This document shows positions 33,602 to 43,065 of a stretch of DNA of 64,000 nucleotides, piece by piece (the first letter of the stretch is position 1; every line of letters begins with the position of its first letter). The stretch covers positions 558,001 through 622,000 of the forward strand of contig NZ_CP089095.1 of the NCBI RefSeq assembly GCF_021172145.1. Reading direction: 5' to 3'. The DNA comes from Flavobacterium cyclinae. Lineage in GTDB: Bacteria > Bacteroidota > Bacteroidia > Flavobacteriales > Flavobacteriaceae. Both the position numbers and the translations under genes were made by a program. The notes below the pieces were generated by a model. That model made no database searches, was not told where the DNA came from, and saw only the letters and a list, made by a program, of their open reading frames with translations.

Positions 33602-33609
33602 TATTTTTG
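33602..33609 (+). promoter_or_regulatory. -7 box of xrtF
   Basis: TATTTTTG, an exact match. Its position rules out the upstream TTG at 33607 as start codon and supports the TTG at 33625. Confidence 0.55.
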
Positions 33610-33624
33610 TTAAAAATCTATAAT

Positions 33625-34176
33625 TTGAAAAACACTTTTAGTCAATATAAACCTTTTTTTGCTTTTTTAACCAAGTTTATTGTTTTTTATTTGGTATTTG
33701 CGTTTGTATATAAAATGTATTTAAACCAATACAATGCTGAAAATAAGGAGGTGGATTATTTTACAGAAATTGTTGCAAAACAAACAGTTGAAGTGTTGAA
33801 TTTGTTTGCTGGTGAATCTCAATATCTTCCTCATCCAAAAGAAGCTTCTTTAAAAGTATATCTTAAAGAAAAATATTTGGCAAGGGTTGTTGAAGGTTGT
33901 AATGCGATTAGTATTATGATTTTATTTGGAGCCTTTATTTTTGCTTTTTCAAACAAATGGAAAAAGACAATTCTCTATATTGTAATAGGAATAGGTATTA
34001 TTCATTTACTAAATGTTTTACGAATTGCATTGCTAACCTATGCATTGTACTATTATCCTGAACACGAAGAATTATTACACGGAACAATTTTTCCGCTTGT
34101 GATTTATGGAGTGGTTTTTGTTTTATGGATAATGTGGATAACTAAATTTTCGGGCTATGTTAAAAAGAATTCTTAG
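33625..34176 (+). CDS. xrtF: Exosortase family protein XrtF
   Basis: 183 residues from TTG 33625 (no ATG is available before the first membrane helix). Four to five membrane helices. The exosortase/archaeosortase catalytic triad is present: C92 (VEGCNAIS), R133 (NVLRIALL) and H152 (ELLHGTIFP). Exosortases are membrane transpeptidases that process C-terminal sorting signals; XrtF is the Bacteroidota type with unclear substrates. The partner gene follows with a 20-base overlap. No obvious substrate gene lies nearby. Confidence 0.9.
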   Translation: MKNTFSQYKPFFAFLTKFIVFYLVFAFVYKMYLNQYNAENKEVDYFTEIVAKQTVEVLNLFAGESQYLPHPKEASLKVYLKEKYLARVVEGCNAISIMILFGAFIFAFSNKWKKTILYIVIGIGIIHLLNVLRIALLTYALYYYPEHEELLHGTIFPLVIYGVVFVLWIMWITKFSGYVKKNS

Positions 34177-34600
34177 AAACAAGAAAAGAATTTTCTTAAT
34201 AGGATTAGCTTTTTTGGGACTAATTTTAATTAGAGTCTTTGAGGATAATTTGTTTTATGATCCTTTTTTGTCATTTTATAAATCAGAGTATTTAAACAAA
34301 CCTTTACCCGTTTTTAATGGTGTCTTGTTGTTTGTAAACCTGTTTTTTAGATATTTTGTTAATACACTTTTTTCTTTAAGTATTATTTGGTTGCTTTTTT
34401 TTGATAAGACAATAGTAAAATTTTCTGCTAATCTTTTTGTGTTCTTTTTTGTGGTATTAGTTCTAGCGTTTTTTGGAATTTTGTTCCTTTCAAATAATCC
34501 AGATTATTTAATTTTATTTTACGTACGCAGGTTTTTAATCCAACCTTTATTTTTAGTTCTGTTTATTCCAGCCTTTTATTATCAGAAGATTTCTCGATAA
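34157..34600 (+). CDS. Exosortase F system-associated protein
   Basis: 147 residues, about four membrane helices and little polar sequence. ENLFYDPFL and the position overlapping the end of xrtF identify it as the family regularly encoded with XrtF. Function unknown; presumably an accessory of the protease or its substrates. Confidence 0.85.
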   Translation: MLKRILRNKKRIFLIGLAFLGLILIRVFEDNLFYDPFLSFYKSEYLNKPLPVFNGVLLFVNLFFRYFVNTLFSLSIIWLLFFDKTIVKFSANLFVFFFVVLVLAFFGILFLSNNPDYLILFYVRRFLIQPLFLVLFIPAFYYQKISR

Positions 34601-35469: not shown

Positions 35470-36825
35470 ATGAAAATTCATTTTTTGGGCGGAGCAGGAA
35501 CTGTGACAGGTTCTAAAACATTAATCGAACATAGTAATCTTCGAATTCTGATTGATTGTGGTATGTTTCAAGGCATCAAATCATTGCGCGAATTAAATCG
35601 GGAACCGCTTTCAATTTTGCCAGAAACAATAGATTTTGTTATTCTTACTCACGGACATTTAGATCACTGTGGTTGGTTGCCCAAATTGGTAAATGAGGGT
35701 TTCAATGGAAAAATTTTCTGTACACGACCCACGAAAGAAATTTCGCGATTGATTTTATATGATAGTGCGAAAATTCAGGAAGAAGAAGCTAAAAGAGCCA
35801 ATGAAGAGCATTTCTCAAAACACGATCCAGCCGAACCTTTGTATACAGAATCCGATGTAGATGCTGTAATTTCTATGTTTCGAGTGGTAGATAAAGATTT
35901 GGACGTGAAACTCGATGATGCTATTTCGTTCAAATTCTTTTATGCAAGTCATATTTTAGGCGCTTGCTCGATTGAATTAACGATTGACGGAAAAGTTTTG
36001 GTGTTTTCAGGTGATATTGGTCAAGACGAAGATGTACTTATGTTTCCGCCTCAAAAACCGAAGAAAGCAGATTATGTTTTTTTGGAAAGTACCTACGGAA
36101 ATCGTCTTCATCCTCAAACCGATGCTTTATTTGAATTAGAAACCATTATCAATAATACGTTCAACCGAGGTGGAACGGTTGTAATTCCAAGTTTTGCAGT
36201 GGAACGTGTACAATCCATGATGTATTTGATTTGGCAATTGAAAAAAGAAGAACGTATTCCAAATATGCATTATATTATAGATACACCAATGGGGATTAGT
36301 GTTTTAGATGTTTTTAAAGACAATAGCACTTGGCACAAAATTTCTTTTGAAGATTGCGATGAAATGTGCAAAGTTTTTACTTTAATTTCTGATTACAAAG
36401 ATAGTATGAATGCCGTTTTCGATAAACAACCAAAAGTAGTCATCGCAGCAAGTGGAATGATTACAGGAGGAAGAGTTTTGTCTTATTTGGAAAGATTAAT
36501 CGATAAACCAGAAACTACTATAACATTGGTAGGTTATCAAGCGGAAGGAACTCGAGGTAGAAAATTATTAGAAGGTGCTCAAGAAATTAAAATTTACGGA
36601 AAATATTATCCAGTACGAGCTAATATTATGTTAATCGAAAGTTTATCGGCACATGGCGACCAAAAAGATTTACTGAATTGGCTATCCGAATTGGAAACCA
36701 AACCTAAAAAAGTATTCTTAGTTCACGGTGAAAATGAAGCAGCTGATGAGTTGAGATTAAAGATTCAAGACCATTATAATTTTGAAGTTCAAGTCCCTTT
36801 TTTAGGTCAAGTCATTGAAATTTAG
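35470..36825 (+). CDS. MBL-fold beta-CASP ribonuclease
   Basis: 451 residues. Metallo-beta-lactamase motif H61-G-H63-LD65-H66 (LTHGHLDHCGWL), further ligands in FYASHILGACS and FSGDIG, then beta-CASP (~200-330; PSFAVERVQ) and the RNA-specificity region (SGMITGGRVLSYL, SLSAHGDQKDLL, VFLVHGE). These are CPSF73-like RNases acting on RNA. Two metal-dependent nucleic-acid enzymes side by side (with the ATP-cone fusion) may work together; this is inference. Confidence 0.93.
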   Translation: MKIHFLGGAGTVTGSKTLIEHSNLRILIDCGMFQGIKSLRELNREPLSILPETIDFVILTHGHLDHCGWLPKLVNEGFNGKIFCTRPTKEISRLILYDSAKIQEEEAKRANEEHFSKHDPAEPLYTESDVDAVISMFRVVDKDLDVKLDDAISFKFFYASHILGACSIELTIDGKVLVFSGDIGQDEDVLMFPPQKPKKADYVFLESTYGNRLHPQTDALFELETIINNTFNRGGTVVIPSFAVERVQSMMYLIWQLKKEERIPNMHYIIDTPMGISVLDVFKDNSTWHKISFEDCDEMCKVFTLISDYKDSMNAVFDKQPKVVIAASGMITGGRVLSYLERLIDKPETTITLVGYQAEGTRGRKLLEGAQEIKIYGKYYPVRANIMLIESLSAHGDQKDLLNWLSELETKPKKVFLVHGENEAADELRLKIQDHYNFEVQVPFLGQVIEI

Positions 36826-36858
36826 AATAAAATTAACTCAAATTAAAATTCAATTTGC

Positions 36859-36866
36859 TAATTTTG
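36859..36866 (+). promoter_or_regulatory. -7 box of the copper-type cluster, almost touching the ATG
   Basis: TAATTTTG, an exact match, followed by only 5 bases before the ATG at 36872. The transcript would be leaderless or nearly so. Confidence 0.55.
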
Positions 36867-36871
36867 CACCG

Positions 36872-37279
36872 ATGAATCTCAGAAAACAAATAAGTATCGT
36901 TTTAGCTTCTCTTATATTGCTTGCCAATTTAGGATTGAGTTTTTCTGTGCATTATTGTAAAGATGAAATTGCTTCGGTTTCTTTTCAATATCAAGAAGAT
37001 GAACCTTGTGTTGAGGAGATAAAATCATGTTGTGCAAAAGAAGATTCTCACGATTCTTGTTGTTCTAATAAATTAATTAAAGTTGAAAAAAAGACCGATG
37101 ATATATTGGTTAAAACCTTTCAATTAGATTTAGAACCAACAGTTTTTGCTGCTGATTGGAAGCCAAACTTTGTTGCACTTGAATCAGAAAATACTATTTC
37201 AAATGAAGTGGCGTATTATTGCGATTCTCATGCACCACCACTCTACAAACTCTATTGTCAATTGGTTTTTTACGCATAA
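36872..37279 (+). CDS. HYC_CC_PP family small exported protein
   Basis: 135 residues from ATG 36872; the frame opens 19 codons earlier but those lie in the promoter. Signal-like helix (~7-24) followed by H27-Y-C29, two CC pairs (53-54, 63-64) and the tail HAPPLYKLYCQLVFYA, the three hallmarks that name the family. It is the first gene of a cluster with a TonB receptor and an HMA protein. Cysteine/histidine content suggests copper contact. By analogy with copper-sensing upstream ORFs before copper receptors it may act as a nascent-chain sensor rather than as a stable protein (inference). Confidence 0.88.
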   Translation: MNLRKQISIVLASLILLANLGLSFSVHYCKDEIASVSFQYQEDEPCVEEIKSCCAKEDSHDSCCSNKLIKVEKKTDDILVKTFQLDLEPTVFAADWKPNFVALESENTISNEVAYYCDSHAPPLYKLYCQLVFYA

Positions 37280-37280
37280 G

Positions 37281-37325
37281 TTTATTGTTTTTTATTCTGT
37301 AAATCAAAGAATTAATAACAATAAA
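37281..37325 (+). promoter_or_regulatory. Nested inverted repeats between the HYC_CC_PP gene and the receptor gene
   Basis: Outer arms TTTATTGTT (37281-37289) and AACAATAAA (37317-37325); inner arms ATTCT (37294-37298) and AGAAT (37308-37312). The structure starts 2 bases after the upstream stop and ends 10 bases before the receptor ATG. It could control receptor translation or transcription. Confidence 0.5.
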
Positions 37326-37335
37326 TAACTTTATT

Positions 37336-39621
37336 ATGTTTAAAAATATAGCGTTTTTGCTATTCTTTGTTTCTCAATTTATTTATTCGCAAGAAACTAT
37401 AAAAGGAACAGTTAAAGACGAAAATAATCAACCTTTATTAGGTGCTAATGTGTTTTGGTTTAATACTGCAGTAGGCACCACAACAGATGAAAACGGAAAT
37501 TTTTCCATTAAAAAATCACTGGAATCTAATTTTTTAGTGGTAAGCTACGTTGGATTTGAAACAAAAAAAATTGAAGTAACTTCAACTACAATTTCTATAG
37601 TTTTAAAAGAAGTAAATACTCTTAAAGAAGTAGTTGTTTCAAAAACGAAAAAAGGAACAGAACACTCGTTATACAAAGTTCAAAATGTTCAAGTAATGGG
37701 ACAAAAAGAGTTGCTAAAAGCAGCTTGTTGTAATTTGTCTGAGAGTTTTAGTACGAATCCTTCTATTGATGTAAATTTTTCGGATGCCGTAACAGGAAAT
37801 CGTCAGATTAAAATGTTGGGTTTAACAAGTCCGTATATTTTGATTGCGGAAGAGAATATACCTTCGGTTCGTGGTGCTTCACAAGCGTATGGTTTATCTT
37901 TTGTGCCTGGAACTTGGGTGGAAAGTATTCAAATTACAAAAGGAGCAGGAAGTGTAATTAATGGTTATGAAAGTATTTCGGGCCAAATCAATTATGAAGT
38001 TTTGAAACCGGTTAATGATATTCCATTTTTCTTAAATGTTTATGGTTCTCAAGATAGTCGTTATGAAATAAATACGCATTTCAATAACAAGTTTTCTGAT
38101 AAATTGAGTTCAACTTTGTTTCTACATGGCAATACCAGACAAAACAGAAACGATATGAACAACGACGGATTTTTAGATGGTCCGATTGGAAAACAAGTCA
38201 ATATATTAAACCGTTGGCAATTTAACGATGCTGAAAATGGAATTGTAAGTTTTTTAAATGTTCGTTACATGAATGATGAAAAGCAAGCGGGAGAGATGGA
38301 TTTCAATCCAGATACGGATAGATTAACTACAAACGCTTGGGGAAGTGAAATTAACACTGAAAAAATTGAAATTTCAAACAAAACGGGTTATGTTTTTCCT
38401 GAAATGCCCTATCAAAGTTTTGGATTTCAAAATTCATTTCAATCACATAAGCAAGAATCGTATTTTGGCTTAAGTCAGTATGACATGCATCAAAAAAGTT
38501 TTTATTCCAACTTATTATTCAATTCGATAATTAATAACACTAAAAATAAATTTACTACGGGATTAAATTTCTCTTACGATGATTATAATGAATTCGTAGC
38601 GGTAAATTTTAGTCGCGATTTTTCTAGAATTGATAATTCAGTTGGTGCTTTTTTTGAATATACTTTTGATAATTTAGATAATTTCAGTTTGGTTGCAGGA
38701 GCAAGAGTTGATAATCACAATCGTTTAGGAACTTTTGTTACCCCAAGATTACATATAAGATACAATCCTTGGAAAGATGCAGTAATTAGAGCTTCGGCTG
38801 GAAGAGGTAAACGTGCCGCTAATATTTTTGCTGAAAACCAACAATTATTTGCATCCAACAGAAATTTCTCAATTTTTAATACGAATGGAAAATTGTACGG
38901 ATTAAATCCAGAAATTGCTTGGAATTATGGATTAAGTTTCATTCAAAAATTCAAGTTAGCTGGAAAAGATGCTGAGGTGATTTTGGATTATTACAGAACC
39001 GATTTTCAAAATCAAGCAGTTGTAGATGTAGACCATTCACCACAAGAAGTTTTGTTTTATAATTTAGAAGGAAAGAGTTTTGCGAATTCATTACAAGCAG
39101 AATTTTCTATTGATTTGATGACGCATTTAACGTTTAAAACGGCATATAAATATTATGATGTTCAATCACAATTTACAAGAGGACAACTTGAGCGTCCTTT
39201 ACAAGCAAAACATCGTGTTTTTGGGAATTTAGCCTACGAAACACACATCAAAGACAAAGGGCAACAATGGAAGTTTGATATAACGTATAATTGGCTAGGT
39301 GAACAACGTTTGCCTTATACGCAATCAAATCCAGTACCATACCGTTTAGATGAATATGCTCCTGCTTTCGGAACATTGAATGCTCAAATTACAAGAACGT
39401 TTTCAAGTGTTTTTGAAGTGTATGTTGGTGGAGAAAACATGGGTAATTATAAACAAATGAATGGAATTATTCAAAATGATAATCCTTTTGGTACTTATTT
39501 TGATAGTAGTATGATATACGGACCTACTTTTGGAGCTATGTATTATGCTGGATTACGATTTAAAATTAAAGATAAAAAAGAAAATCAAAAAATTGAAGTG
39601 CTAACTCCTGAAGAAGAATAA
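37336..39621 (+). CDS. TonB-dependent receptor, probable copper transporter
   Basis: 761 residues. Signal peptide (~1-18), carboxypeptidase-like regulatory domain (~21-92; ETIKGTVKDENNQPLLGANV), plug domain (~95-215) and 22-strand barrel. The plug carries an adjacent cysteine pair, C131-C132 (KAACCNLSESFSTNPS), a form typical of Bacteroidota receptors next to copper genes. The flanking HYC_CC_PP and HMA genes support copper as cargo. Imports its ligand across the outer membrane using TonB energy. Confidence 0.92.
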   Translation: MFKNIAFLLFFVSQFIYSQETIKGTVKDENNQPLLGANVFWFNTAVGTTTDENGNFSIKKSLESNFLVVSYVGFETKKIEVTSTTISIVLKEVNTLKEVVVSKTKKGTEHSLYKVQNVQVMGQKELLKAACCNLSESFSTNPSIDVNFSDAVTGNRQIKMLGLTSPYILIAEENIPSVRGASQAYGLSFVPGTWVESIQITKGAGSVINGYESISGQINYEVLKPVNDIPFFLNVYGSQDSRYEINTHFNNKFSDKLSSTLFLHGNTRQNRNDMNNDGFLDGPIGKQVNILNRWQFNDAENGIVSFLNVRYMNDEKQAGEMDFNPDTDRLTTNAWGSEINTEKIEISNKTGYVFPEMPYQSFGFQNSFQSHKQESYFGLSQYDMHQKSFYSNLLFNSIINNTKNKFTTGLNFSYDDYNEFVAVNFSRDFSRIDNSVGAFFEYTFDNLDNFSLVAGARVDNHNRLGTFVTPRLHIRYNPWKDAVIRASAGRGKRAANIFAENQQLFASNRNFSIFNTNGKLYGLNPEIAWNYGLSFIQKFKLAGKDAEVILDYYRTDFQNQAVVDVDHSPQEVLFYNLEGKSFANSLQAEFSIDLMTHLTFKTAYKYYDVQSQFTRGQLERPLQAKHRVFGNLAYETHIKDKGQQWKFDITYNWLGEQRLPYTQSNPVPYRLDEYAPAFGTLNAQITRTFSSVFEVYVGGENMGNYKQMNGIIQNDNPFGTYFDSSMIYGPTFGAMYYAGLRFKIKDKKENQKIEVLTPEEE

Positions 39622-39645
39622 GCACATAACCTAAAATTACAAAAC

Positions 39646-39990
39646 ATGAAAAGAATCGTTTTATTGCTATTAGTTGGTCTTTTTTCATTAACTATGGTAG
39701 CTCAAGAAAAGAAAAGTAAAAACAAAAAAGTAGAATTTAAAGTAGCAGGAAATTGTGAAATGTGCGAAAAACGAATTGAAAAAGCTGCTTTTTCTGTGAA
39801 AGGTGTTAAAAGTGCAGAATGGCATGCTGACCATAATGTAATCCATCTTGTAATAGATGAAACAAAATGTTCAAAAGAAGATGTGGCTAAATCAATTGCT
39901 GCAGTAGGGCATGATACAGAATTTGTAAAAGCCAATGATGAGGTTTATAATGAATTACATGGATGTTGTTTGTATGAACGAATAAATTAA
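39646..39990 (+). CDS. Periplasmic heavy-metal-associated (HMA) domain protein
   Basis: 114 residues. Signal peptide ending near MVAQ|EKK (~20), then a ferredoxin-like HMA domain with the metal site C37-EM-C40 (GNCEMCEKRIEKA). The C-terminus has a further CC pair (HGCCLYERIN). A copper carrier in the periplasm that could receive metal from the receptor encoded 24 bases upstream. Last gene of the cluster. Confidence 0.92.
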   Translation: MKRIVLLLLVGLFSLTMVAQEKKSKNKKVEFKVAGNCEMCEKRIEKAAFSVKGVKSAEWHADHNVIHLVIDETKCSKEDVAKSIAAVGHDTEFVKANDEVYNELHGCCLYERIN

Positions 39991-40014
39991 ATAATTAAAT
40001 TTCTCTATTATCAT

Positions 40015-40047
40015 AAAACCGATTAGATTTTACTAATCGGTTTTTTT
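40015..40047 (+). terminator. Terminator of the copper-type cluster
   Basis: AAAACCGATTAG pairs with CTAATCGGTTTT around an ATTTTA loop, followed by T residues. Confidence 0.92.
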
Positions 40048-40091
40048 GTTAAAATTATGTGATTATTAATTTTTTAATCTAAAATAAAATA

Positions 40092-40099
40092 TAAATTTG
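40092..40099 (+). promoter_or_regulatory. -7 box of the inorganic-carbon cluster
   Basis: TAAATTTG, an exact match, 30 bases before the TTG start. The short leader also folds: TCACTT (40103-40108) pairs with AAGTGA (40117-40122). Confidence 0.6.
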
Positions 40100-40129
40100 T
40101 ACTCACTTTAGGTAGCAAGTGAATTCAAT

Positions 40130-40498
40130 TTGAAAAGATTATTACATTTATTTCCTGTATTTATGCTCACATTTTTTATGTGGGCTATTGGTGTTTCGTA
40201 TAACGCATCAATAGTAGGAGTATCTGGAAATCAAGTTGAAATCAATCAAGATTACAAAGACTTGCATTTTTCTCATTTCCAAACAGTTGAAGTAGAGGAA
40301 GGTGAGTTTTTAATTGTTGAGTCAGAACCAGAGTTTGAAGTGGAATTGGATTGGTTTTCAATTCCTACAAAATCTTTTAACATTTTACAATCATCGTTAA
40401 AAGATTCCACAACTTCATATATATCCTCTTTATTTTCTTCAAAAGAAACCATTCCACTTTACGATTTATATTGTAATTGGAAGTTTCACCTTTCTTAA
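40130..40498 (+). CDS. Small exported protein heading the DAB cluster
   Basis: 122 residues, TTG start. Signal-like or anchoring helix (~4-24), a very acidic middle (FQTVEVEEGEFLIVESEPEFEVELDW) and the tail IPLYDLYCNWKFHLS with the only cysteine. The tail shares PLYxLYCxxxF with the HYC_CC_PP protein 3 kb upstream, which also heads a transport cluster. No named family recognised. It may be a leader-type regulatory ORF for dabA/dabB or a small secreted component. Confidence 0.7.
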   Translation: MKRLLHLFPVFMLTFFMWAIGVSYNASIVGVSGNQVEINQDYKDLHFSHFQTVEVEEGEFLIVESEPEFEVELDWFSIPTKSFNILQSSLKDSTTSYISSLFSSKETIPLYDLYCNWKFHLS

Positions 40499-40553
40499 TA
40501 CACATTTATTTTTTTACATCATTTTTTGATTGTGAATGTTCACTGTGTATTAA
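40495..40553 (+). promoter_or_regulatory. Nested inverted repeats between the small protein and dabA
   Basis: Outer arms TTAATACACA (40495-40504, including the upstream stop codon) and TGTGTATTAA (40544-40553) pair perfectly over 10 bp. Inside lies GTGAATGTTCAC (40532-40543), a 5-bp hairpin that abuts the right arm. The structure ends 16 bases before the dabA ATG, where it could affect translation coupling or termination. Confidence 0.6.
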
Positions 40554-40569
40554 TTTATTTCATTAATCA

Positions 40570-43065
40570 ATGAAAACACATATTGTTAGTTTTGATGAAC
40601 ACGAAGTTCTTCATCACTTAACCCATTATTTACCAGCACAAAATCCGTTGAAAGACTTTGTGCATCATAATACTTTGCATGCTTTTCAAAGTAAAAAATT
40701 TCACGATGCACTATTAGAAGCTTCTACCATTTTTGGTTATAAAACCTATTTGTCAATAACCGATTTTAGACAACGATTTGCTAATAAAGAAATCAATGAA
40801 GCGGTTTTAGATGCCATCATTATAAGAGCAAAAGGAGTTGCAAATCTTCAAACTTGGAAAGACAAATTATTAAAAACCAATTATGATGAATCCGTATCTC
40901 CAAGAATAGGAAGTTTACGTTCTAATTGGAAAAAATACTATGCTATAAATCTTGAAAAATCAACACATAGTTTGCTATTTCGTGTGCTATGTAGTTACTT
41001 AGATCAAGGTGTTGCCATTTGGAATTTCCCTGTACATGATAAAGGATTTTTAGCTTCTATTCGAGAGTTAGAAAAAAATACCTTTAAAGGAATATTTTCT
41101 TCTGATAGAGCAAAAAAATTATTACAAGAAAACGCTTCTATTACCCAATTATTAGAATTAATTGTAGGAAAAGAAGAATTATTCGAACAATATTTATTTG
41201 ACCAACAATTTGGGCATCCTGGTTGGAGCGGCATGATTGCTACTATCGAAAATAATCCAAGTTCTTTATTAGATTCTAAACAAATCACCTTAGAAGAATT
41301 AATAAAATTTGAATTGCTTTTAGAGATTGATACTTTAGATACAAAGTTCAATGATATTTGGGCACCACTTGGTTTTAAAATTGAAGACGAAGAATTTCAG
41401 CTATTTGAAAAAGTCGCATACAATGAACTTTTCGATGTTTTATCACTTTGGCAACAAGCATTTGAATGGAGTTTTTACGATGCTGTTTTGTCTAATGTAC
41501 AAAATGTGAAAGAAGAGAAGTTGGAGCAAATACCAAGTTTTCAAGGTATGTTTTGTATGGACGATAGAGAATGTTCGTTCAGAAGACATATTGAACACAT
41601 TGATAAAAATGCCTCTACTTATGGAACAGCTGCATTTTTTAATTTTGAATTCTTTTACCAACCGGTTAATGGAAAATTTTATACCAAATTATGTCCTGCT
41701 CCAGTAACTCCAAAGTTTTTAATAAAAGAAGAGCATAGAAAGAAAAAACATGCTAAAGATTTGCATTATCACAAGCAATCTCATTCGTTGTTTTTCGGTT
41801 GGATTATTAGTCAAACCTTAGGTTTTTCATCGGCTTTAAAATTGTTTTTGAATATTTTTAAACCTTCAATGTCACCAGCTACAACGGCTTCTTTTAAGCA
41901 TTTACATAAAAAATCCAAATTAGTTATCGAGAATAAAGATGTTAATCACAGAGAAGGTGACTTGCAAATTGGTTTTTCAGTAGAAGAAATGGCTAATAGA
42001 GTAGAAGGTTTACTAAAAAGTATCGGATTAGTTTCGAATTTTTCGCCGATAGTTTATGTTGTTGGGCACGGAGCAACTAGTATTAATAACACGCATTATG
42101 CAGGATATGATTGCGGTGCTTGTTCTGGTAGACCAAGTTCAGTAAATGCAAAAGTAGCCTCATTTGCAGCTAATCATCCAGAAGTAAGAGCCATTTTGAA
42201 AGAAAGAGGAATTGATATTCCTACTTCAACGCAATTTTTGCCTGCTTTACATGATACGACTCGAGATGAAATTGCTTTTTATGATGAAGATACGTTGTCT
42301 GCTGATAATAAAATTTTACATCAACATAACTTGATTACGTTTTCCAAAGCTTTAGATAACAATGCAAAAGAGCGTTCAAGACGTTTTGATACGATTGATA
42401 CTTCAGATACTTTAGAAAAAGTACATGAAAAAGTAAAACGTCGTTCTTTATCTTTATTTGAGCCACGTCCCGAATTAAATCACGCTACTAATGCGATGTG
42501 TATTGTAGGAAGAAGAAGTTTGTCAAAACAATTGTTCTTAGACAGACGTTCGTTTTTGAATTCGTATGACTATAAAGTCGATCCTTCCGGAGATTATTTA
42601 GCCATTATTTTAGGCGCAGTTGCTCCGGTGGGTGGGGGAATTAATTTAGAATATTATTTCTCAAGAGTTGATAATCAAAAACTAGGAGCTGGCTCTAAAC
42701 TACCTCATAACGTAATGGGATTAATTGGAGTTGCGAATGGAATCGACGGCGATTTACGTCCAGGTTTACCAAGTCAAATGATTGAGGTTCATGATCCAGT
42801 TCGTTTGTTAGTCATTGCCGAACATTTTCCAGAAAAGGTAATTTATGCAATTTCTAAAAATCTAGCTACTTACGAATGGTTTAAAAACGATTGGGTAAAA
42901 TTAGTGGCAGTTCAACCTGAAACTAAAGAGCTTTTTGTTTTTGAAGACGAAAAGTTTGTTCCCTATCAACCTATTCAAACTGTGAATTTCATTAAAGATG
43001 AAATGCAGTTAGTTGAAACCACAAAAGAGAATCTTCCGGTAGGAATAATTACAAATACATTTTAA
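40570..43065 (+). CDS. dabA: Inorganic carbon transporter subunit DabA (DUF2309)
   Basis: 831 residues, full family length. DabA is a zinc, carbonic-anhydrase-like subunit that with DabB drives one-way hydration of CO2 to bicarbonate. The zinc/active residues are all found: C329-x-D331 (GMFCMDDREC), H500 (VVGHGATS) and C515 (YDCGACSG), with the same spacing of 15 between the latter two as in Halothiobacillus DabA. Cytoplasmic, peripheral on the membrane. dabB follows after 3 bases. In a heterotroph it probably supplies bicarbonate for carboxylations at air levels of CO2. Confidence 0.95.
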   Translation: MKTHIVSFDEHEVLHHLTHYLPAQNPLKDFVHHNTLHAFQSKKFHDALLEASTIFGYKTYLSITDFRQRFANKEINEAVLDAIIIRAKGVANLQTWKDKLLKTNYDESVSPRIGSLRSNWKKYYAINLEKSTHSLLFRVLCSYLDQGVAIWNFPVHDKGFLASIRELEKNTFKGIFSSDRAKKLLQENASITQLLELIVGKEELFEQYLFDQQFGHPGWSGMIATIENNPSSLLDSKQITLEELIKFELLLEIDTLDTKFNDIWAPLGFKIEDEEFQLFEKVAYNELFDVLSLWQQAFEWSFYDAVLSNVQNVKEEKLEQIPSFQGMFCMDDRECSFRRHIEHIDKNASTYGTAAFFNFEFFYQPVNGKFYTKLCPAPVTPKFLIKEEHRKKKHAKDLHYHKQSHSLFFGWIISQTLGFSSALKLFLNIFKPSMSPATTASFKHLHKKSKLVIENKDVNHREGDLQIGFSVEEMANRVEGLLKSIGLVSNFSPIVYVVGHGATSINNTHYAGYDCGACSGRPSSVNAKVASFAANHPEVRAILKERGIDIPTSTQFLPALHDTTRDEIAFYDEDTLSADNKILHQHNLITFSKALDNNAKERSRRFDTIDTSDTLEKVHEKVKRRSLSLFEPRPELNHATNAMCIVGRRSLSKQLFLDRRSFLNSYDYKVDPSGDYLAIILGAVAPVGGGINLEYYFSRVDNQKLGAGSKLPHNVMGLIGVANGIDGDLRPGLPSQMIEVHDPVRLLVIAEHFPEKVIYAISKNLATYEWFKNDWVKLVAVQPETKELFVFEDEKFVPYQPIQTVNFIKDEMQLVETTKENLPVGIITNTF

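Follow-up and report, generated by a model that had tools for sequence, protein, structure and literature searches.

The 64,000-nucleotide (nt) stretch of DNA analysed here, hereafter the window, comes from Flavobacterium cyclinae (assembly GCF_021172145.1, contig NZ_CP089095.1, positions 558,001–622,000 of the forward strand) and carries a small gene of the HYC_CC_PP family directly before a gene for a TonB-dependent receptor (Table 1). Analysis of this gene and its relatives suggested that HYC_CC_PP is probably a cis-acting, termination-coupled nascent-chain leader similar to CutF and CruR, which would act at its stop codon and not at the PPLY codons of its tail. Comparison of the loci showed that, before genes for TonB receptors and RND pumps, a predicted stem begins at or near the stop codon of the leader, is closed by the segment just ahead of the downstream start, and has arms that coevolve. 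The anatomy of an upstream leader was supported by the loci fetched from the genus, in 104 of 105 of which a TonB receptor gene came next (an RND pump in the other one), and by 93 of 102 genus gaps in which a ribosome modelled at the stop codon lowered the cost of opening the downstream start by at least 3 kcal/mol.

The predicted stem between leader stop codon and downstream start

Two sets of loci were compared. Among 296 Bacteroidota genomes drawn evenly, 91 contained a HYC_CC_PP match at E ≤ 0.001 (above the family cut-off in 84), and the phylum set comprised 112 of the 123 listed matches, from 85 genomes and 57 genera; the 11 matches that were not fetched all lay below the family cut-off. 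Within the genus, the family was present in 179 of 199 genomes, and the genus set consisted of 105 loci, mostly the better-scoring among the matches listed, so that weaker second copies are under-represented. Removal of one gap longer than 140 nt and of two duplicates left 102 distinct genus gaps for stem analysis. The phylum stem tests covered 92 loci with gaps of 33–205 nt, with downstream starts and gene classes chosen by script; they omitted the 20 of 112 loci with gaps above 205 nt, including 6 of 31 TonB and 1 of 24 RND loci.

An earlier reading of the window from its sequence alone (the sequence-only reading) had described a nested stem filling the gap between leader and receptor, and this was borne out: the region of the 56-nt gap folded at −16.6 kcal/mol (z −3.65), with 1 of 200 shuffles as good. 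When the 20 script-found same-strand gaps of 30–205 nt in the window were ranked by how well the stop region pairs with the segment before the start, the leader–receptor gap came second (7 of 300 shuffles), and the gap between a second leader and dabA came first (1 of 300).

The sequence-only reading had also suggested comparing genomes for conserved stems in such gaps, and across the 92 phylum loci the two arms coevolved, with a native mean of −10.78 kcal/mol vs. −6.23 kcal/mol when 3′ arms were permuted among loci, a value reached by none of 20,000 permutations. None of 20,000 reached the native value either with one locus per genus (48 loci, z −12.4) or with one per family (20 loci, z −7.1). 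The signal was pronounced before TonB (9 genera, z −5.4) and RND genes (16 genera, z −7.8), and weaker both where a gene for a small protein followed (15 genera, z −4.3; the native value was reached in 1 of 20,000) and for the class of other genes (5, z −3.1). Relative to shuffled sequences, z fell below −2 in 49 of 92 leader gaps and in 8 of 62 ordinary control gaps from the same loci. In the 91 loci of the position test (one further gap, shorter than 45 nt, was omitted), the partner of the pre-start segment began no more than 8 nt from the end of the stop codon in 57, including 22 of 25 TonB, 21 of 23 RND, and 5 of 5 other loci, although such positions made up only 1526 of the 15653 available.

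The best duplexes of the 102 genus gaps had a median of −13.75 kcal/mol (range −6.7 to −19.2), 90 of them at or below −10. The first, second, and third bases of the stop codon were paired in 67, 84, and 90 gaps, respectively, and the reported 3′ end of the duplex, which includes one unpaired base, most often lay 5–7 nt before the ATG (77 of 102). Covariation was visible at the second stop base, where G-C (48), G-U (11), and A-U (25) pairs alternated with an unpaired state (18), and exchanges among UA, AU, GC, and CG pairs were seen along positions +4 to +10. Because the duplex program, which accepts canonical pairs only, always finds some duplex, the argument is carried by the permutations and not by these pair counts.

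The consequence of a ribosome near the end of the leader was modelled with a footprint of about 15 nt on either side of the P site, which is our own assumption, and with either the stop codon in the A site or the first proline of PP in the P site. The mean opening cost of the downstream start in the genus fell from 9.8 kcal/mol in the free RNA to 3.6 kcal/mol with the ribosome at the stop codon and stayed at 9.8 kcal/mol with it at PP, where no drop of at least 3 kcal/mol occurred in any of the 102 gaps, all of which follow a PP-bearing leader. The corresponding values for the window were 11.8, 3.5, and 12.2 kcal/mol. RND loci gave 9.8, 6.0, and 10.4 kcal/mol, with the drop at the stop codon in 14 of 23 and at PP in none of the 18 that bear it. 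TonB loci outside the genus gave 9.6, 4.4, and 9.7 kcal/mol (drop at the stop codon in 5 of 8), small-protein loci 7.5, 4.0, and 7.4 kcal/mol (13 of 25), and HMA loci 8.7, 6.4, and 8.5 kcal/mol (4 of 9).

Several variants of the gap were noticed, the first two of them by eye. Four RND loci (L017, L018, L023, and L024) had gaps of about 107–128 nt with two extra inner hairpins within the closing stem, among them a TTCGGTNTTTT..AANACCAA hairpin. Four other loci (L051, L055, L056, and L063) had little or no closing stem and shared a local hairpin past the stop codon, followed by GGCATTTC or GCATTTC, which is perhaps another switch. In 11 genus loci (L013, L150, L151, L154, L157, L159, L160, L161, L166, L168, and L188) the leader was a few codons longer, ending in DKL, DKF, DQF, and the like, with its stop codon inside the old 5′ arm and the helix retained.

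The proposed leader peptide and the genes it precedes

The sequence-only reading had described the product of the leader gene as a small, exported-looking protein with HYC, two CC pairs, and a PP tail ahead of a TonB receptor. This description was correct, and the protein proved to be a member of NF047658 (HYC_CC_PP), a family named by its motif only, matching the whole profile with 149.7 bits (E 5.9e-44) against a cut-off of 28. The protein is probably exported, as judged from its hydrophobic start and a helix predicted at residues 3–19 in a poor AlphaFold model (mean pLDDT 60, pTM 0.32). No PDB fold match of this model was found at E ≤ 0.001, and PDB sequence matches were limited to E 0.31 and 0.52. 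The window protein had no Pfam match at E ≤ 1, and DUF2946 was not matched among the 25 listed of 33 Pfam families for 50 members at the same threshold. Membership in DUF2946 was rejected, given the lack of a match for the window protein and among the families listed, the presence of HYC, C, and CC pairs instead of CxxC/CxxxC, and a window tail that has PP but not RAPP.

In an alignment of 50 of the 112 members, no variation was seen at C29, C54, C63, and C64, and H27, P122, and P123 were conserved in at least 90%. The distance from the last CC to the C-terminus was nearly fixed in the 112 loci (median 73 residues, as in the window; interquartile range 72–74, range 67–80, standard deviation 2.1), while the spacing from HxC to CC was looser (standard deviation 5.3, 105 loci). 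No strand or helix was predicted for residues 71–122 (block pLDDT 44–58), which is weak evidence for an unfolded linker. C-termini ended mostly in FLI, YLI, FRI, LLI, or FY[AS]. In most phylum loci (59 of 112) PP began 17–18 residues before the C-terminus; in the window it occupies residues 122–123, starting 14 residues before the end. In 89 distinct genus sequences selected for PP at −14, a criterion that itself makes PP invariant, L-9 and Y-8 were invariant and the other tail positions mostly nearly so, with every synonymous codon for L, Y, and P represented. As judged from these sequences, the tail is conserved as a peptide while synonymous codons appear free. Shifts of PP were compensated such that the distance from CC to the end stayed constant (101 loci; 0 of 20,000 permutations as good).

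The stop codon of the leader was skewed as well. TGA ended 64 of 112 leaders vs. 70 of 398 neighbouring genes, a difference that persisted when each genus was represented by a single locus (32 of 57 vs. 41 of 206) and in the pooled OEP, small-protein, and HMA classes (28 of 51 vs. 41 of 233). Much of this skew may be due to pairing between TGA and TCA; release-factor-2-dependent arrest as the cause of the remainder is a guess.

Upstream of the script-chosen leader ATG, the motif TAnnTTTG occurred within 45 nt in 97 of 101 distinct genus upstream regions (6.5% of mononucleotide shuffles), most commonly 4 nt before the ATG (68 of 101). In a mapped flavobacterium, in which leaderless mRNAs amount to only 5.5%, the −7 box occupies −12 to −5 (PMC9723704). 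Because TAnnTTTG lies so near the ATG and the box is known at that position, the leader is predicted to be the first gene of its transcript, with an mRNA that is probably leaderless or nearly so.

The Pfam content of the first 260 residues of the next protein was tallied for 111 proteins (one of the 112 loci had no downstream protein), in classes that are not mutually exclusive: ACR_tran 31, Plug 28, HMA 21, HMBD 6, OEP 5, and DUF3347 4. All four RND proteins that were scanned whole passed the CusA/CzcA heavy-metal model. HYC_CC_PP heads metal-transport operons and not only receptors, and a receptor-only role was rejected on this tally. The arrangement described in the sequence-only reading, a leader directly before a TonB receptor, held for the genus and not for the phylum, where an RND pump followed as often.

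Proposed mechanism, rival explanations, and known leaders

In the mechanism proposed here, HYC_CC_PP would be the first gene of a near-leaderless mRNA and act in cis. The exported nascent chain may bind a metal, most likely copper, via HYC, C, and CC once these are past SecYEG, at a time when the fixed-length linker and the C-terminal tail would still reside in the translocon and the ribosome tunnel. Metal binding would alter the dwell of the ribosome over the final codons or at the stop codon, and this dwell would set how much receptor or efflux protein is translated. In the model, a terminating ribosome whose A site holds the stop codon melts the 5′ arm and frees the downstream start, such that a long stay would correspond to the ON state of the downstream gene. 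Metal could shorten this stay before TonB receptors, resulting in less uptake, and lengthen it where an RND pump follows. This choice of sign is a guess, and a search of the literature on copper and TonB receptors in Flavobacterium gave nothing usable on the sign of regulation. Both signs may exist in the family because one leader family precedes uptake as well as efflux genes. For comparison, copper prolongs a stalling-like state in CutF, leading to activation (PMC9973294), and relieves arrest in CruR, leading to repression (PMC9426467).

A number of observations weigh against this mechanism. The stop-anchored layout is not universal in the family: the partner of the pre-start segment lay at the stop codon in just 7 of 24 small-protein, 2 of 9 HMA, and 0 of 5 OEP loci. 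Arm coevolution gave no signal before OEP genes (5) and was not significant before small HMA genes (9), and the opening cost in the OEP class was 6.6 kcal/mol free, 6.6 at the stop codon, and 6.4 at PP, with a drop in 0 of 5. The 62 control gaps showed a weak excess of their own (−7.1 vs. −6.18 kcal/mol, 49 of 20,000). Native pairs ranked in the best 5% of arm swaps in only 52 of 102 genus gaps, where arms are alike, and in 42 of 92 phylum gaps. RNAalifold found no pairs in the MAFFT alignment A4 (68 gaps); we infer that its A/T-rich arms were misaligned, and arm permutations were used for that reason. With one locus per genus, compensation between the CC-to-PP and PP-to-end distances disappeared (6278 of 20,000), and the notion of a ruler that ends at the stop codon and not at PP thus rests on the history of one clade. 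The TGA skew was weak where pairing was weak (E above −8; 11 of 29 vs. 23 of 125, p 0.044), and UGA is not needed for the layout, because all 40 leaders of the dabA type described below end in TAA.

The stem and the coevolution of its arms require just a terminating ribosome, and both would be present if the stem simply tied receptor translation to leader translation while HYC_CC_PP served as a periplasmic metal-binding protein without nascent-chain sensing. The invariant cysteines fit an ordinary metallochaperone encoded beside HMA, RND, and TonB genes. Such plain translational coupling is nevertheless rather unlikely in our estimation, since a chaperone has no need for a tail conserved as a peptide to its last residues, for an apparently unfolded linker of nearly fixed length, or for a stop codon skewed to TGA.

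The sequence-only reading had instead pointed to pausing near the PPLY codons, with the state of the nascent chain deciding whether the stem forms. A copper-relieved arrest at these codons, controlling the receptor via the stem or via Rho, would resemble CruR, which depends on RAPP and copper in its action on the gene of a TonB receptor (PMC9426467), and 101 of 112 loci do carry PP within their last 35 residues. We consider this version improbable. The ribosome modelled at PP stands too far upstream to reach the stem, which it left intact in 102 of 102 genus gaps, and PPLY was rejected as the switch point on this geometry, though control might still run through Rho; moreover, 11 of 112 loci lack PP though their last residues keep the family pattern, and RAPP is absent from the tail of the window protein. 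The stem could also be a transcription attenuator or an element of RNA processing or stability, independent of leader translation, as might be suggested by the runs of at least five consecutive T in the last 12 nt before the ATG in 36 of 102 genus gaps. That possibility appears very slight: the T run is missing from the other 66 gaps and the helix is A+U-rich (median G+C fraction 0.18), on which grounds a terminator role was rejected, and anchoring at the stop codon would be needless for any such role. No Rfam family was matched above threshold either. The two matches at E ≤ 5 within positions 36500–40700 of the window were far below their gathering scores and outside the gap, and a known riboswitch or other Rfam family was dismissed for lack of a covariance-model match above threshold.

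As a termination-coupled leader, HYC_CC_PP would stand close to CutF of Rhodobacter capsulatus (DUF2946; PMC9973294). Both are small exported (for HYC_CC_PP, probably exported) cysteine-bearing proteins encoded first in a metal operon, with a proline-containing C-terminus and a stem shielding the next start (the ribosome-binding site of cutO in the case of CutF) whose opening by a paused ribosome has been proposed. A stem shielding the downstream start was likewise predicted in the window and its relatives, not before OEP or small HMA genes. HYC_CC_PP differs in that no DUF2946 match was found, in having CC pairs instead of the CxxxC of CutF, in its PP, which mostly lies 17–18 residues from the end (14 in the window) and is followed by a conserved hydrophobic, stop-anchored tail, in the start of its stem, which lies at the stop codon, and in its targets, which are TonB receptors, HMA proteins, and pumps of the CusA/CzcA type. 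CruR of Bordetella pertussis (DUF2946), which leads the TonB receptor gene bfrG, shares a conserved distance from the cysteines to the C-terminal motif; it has RAPP three residues from its end, a 162-nt gap, and Rho termination (PMC9426467), compared with the 56-nt gap and coevolving stop-to-start stem of HYC_CC_PP. A precedent for arrest at the stop codon comes from the same phylum: the NSP-stop and NAP-stop arrest peptides of Bacteroidota were shown by toeprinting to arrest ribosomes whose A site holds the stop codon (PMC10987492). These belong to protein-localisation genes, in contrast to HYC_CC_PP with its FLI- and YLI-type ends and metal genes.

The sequence-only reading had proposed HYC_CC_PP as the Bacteroidota counterpart of CruR. 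The leader anatomy agrees with this, but the general idea of CutF-like proteins in Bacteroidota is not new, being already in print in PMC9973294. That survey listed 5,334 CutF-like proteins, with Bacteroidota making up 19% before and 40% after normalisation, and reported that most cysteine-bearing ones precede copper genes, including RND, TonB-like, and PCuAC genes (PMC9973294). Its filter for PP within the 15 C-terminal residues would pass 18 of 112 HYC_CC_PP loci on that criterion, the window's included, and the word "covariation" is absent from its main text. According to a 2025 survey of RAPP/RGPP upstream open reading frames (uORFs), some groups, Bacteroidota included, lack such uORFs ahead of copper-related genes, although its TonB-related class occurs throughout Gram-negatives (PMC12992588). 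HYC_CC_PP, with its different tail, may fill this gap in copper uORFs. No papers were found in a literature search under the name HYC_CC_PP, and searches for such leaders in Bacteroidota found none beyond those cited. Within the literature searched, the new elements are the assignment to the family, a coevolving stem anchored at the stop codon, the case against a PP switch, the stop-codon skew, and the near-leaderless promoter. A family so far named by motif and without a function would thereby gain a proposed cis-regulatory role ahead of genes for heavy-metal pumps and metal receptors across many Bacteroidota. Flavobacteria lack Shine-Dalgarno sequences (PMC9723704), and a stem anchored at the stop codon would offer such bacteria a simple coupling of a nascent-chain signal to the next gene.

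A second putative leader before dabA and other features of the window

Table 1. Positions of the leaders, stems, and adjacent genes within the window.
Feature	Position	Strand	Remarks
−7 box TAATTTTG	36859..36866	+	5 nt ahead of leader ATG
HYC_CC_PP leader open reading frame (ORF)	36872..37279	+	135 amino acids; ATG start; stop TAA 37277–37279; NF047658 match
HYC codons, residues 27–29	36950..36958	+	C29 in all and H27 in at least 90% of 50 aligned members
First CC pair, residues 53–54	37028..37033	+	C54 invariant in 50 aligned members
Second CC pair, residues 63–64	37058..37063	+	C63 and C64 invariant in 50 aligned members; 73 residues to C-terminus
C-terminal tail PPLYKLYCQLVFYA	37235..37276	+	PP at −14 in 92 of 105 genus loci
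Stop codon and 5′ arm of closing stem	37277..37298	+	arm pairs from 37280
3′ arm of closing stem	37308..37326	+	9 nt to receptor ATG
TonB-dependent receptor, predicted target	37336..39621	+	Pfam CarboxypepD_reg, Plug, TonB_dep_Rec_b-barrel
HMA-like metal-binding protein	39646..39990	+	HMA 18.5 bits, under Pfam cut-off 24.8
Second leader ORF, exported-looking, no Cys cluster	40130–40498		TTG start; tail IPLYDLYCNWKFHLS; before dabA
Arms of dabA-leader stem	40495–40504 and 40544–40553		stop-anchored
dabA, probable inorganic carbon transporter subunit	from 40570		PF10070; 71 nt after second leader

A second leader in the window, ahead of dabA, suggested that the stop-anchored layout is not limited to metals. 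Alignment of 18 relatives showed E70, P109, L110, Y111, L113, C115, W117, and K118 to be invariant, with a diverging middle part. Among 40 distinct loci of this type, 32 preceded dabA (31 with gaps of 30–205 nt), two (L204 and L206) preceded other genes, and no downstream gene was found for 6. The arms of the 31 gaps paired at −9.7 kcal/mol vs. −7.4 kcal/mol after permutation, beating all 20,000 permutations; the pairing joins TTAATACAC with GTGTATTAA and, in L246, TTAACAGTT with AACTGTTAA. A narrow DNA pattern for the tail was found in 2 of the 296 phylum genomes, and the named loci found were from Flavobacteriaceae (Flavobacterium included) or other Flavobacteriia/Flavobacteriales. The tail (PLYxLYC) resembles that of HYC_CC_PP; homology of the two was rejected, since profile comparison over 16 tail columns gave 3% probability and E 0.013, which is not significant.

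It is possible, though doubtful, that Bacteroidota use small exported "termination sensors" more generally, with interchangeable sensing parts and a short stop-anchored tail, HYC_CC_PP being the version for metal and the PLYDL[YF]CNWKFHLS-tailed dabA leader that for inorganic carbon or the energy state of the envelope. If this were true, a ribosome held or released at the stop codon would open a stem that starts there, and HYC_CC_PP would control uptake and efflux by this means.

Downstream of the receptor, in which a stretch AACCNL is present, the HMA protein named in the sequence-only reading exists as an HMA-like protein whose domain score stays below the Pfam cut-off; its CopZ and MerP matches were likewise weak and under their cut-offs. 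Upstream, positions 33607–34600 hold two membrane-protein ORFs that resemble an exosortase and its partner. Finally, small ORFs with PLYxL[YF]CxWKFH tails were noticed in L204 and L206, before genes that by eye resemble those of RND membrane-fusion lipoproteins.

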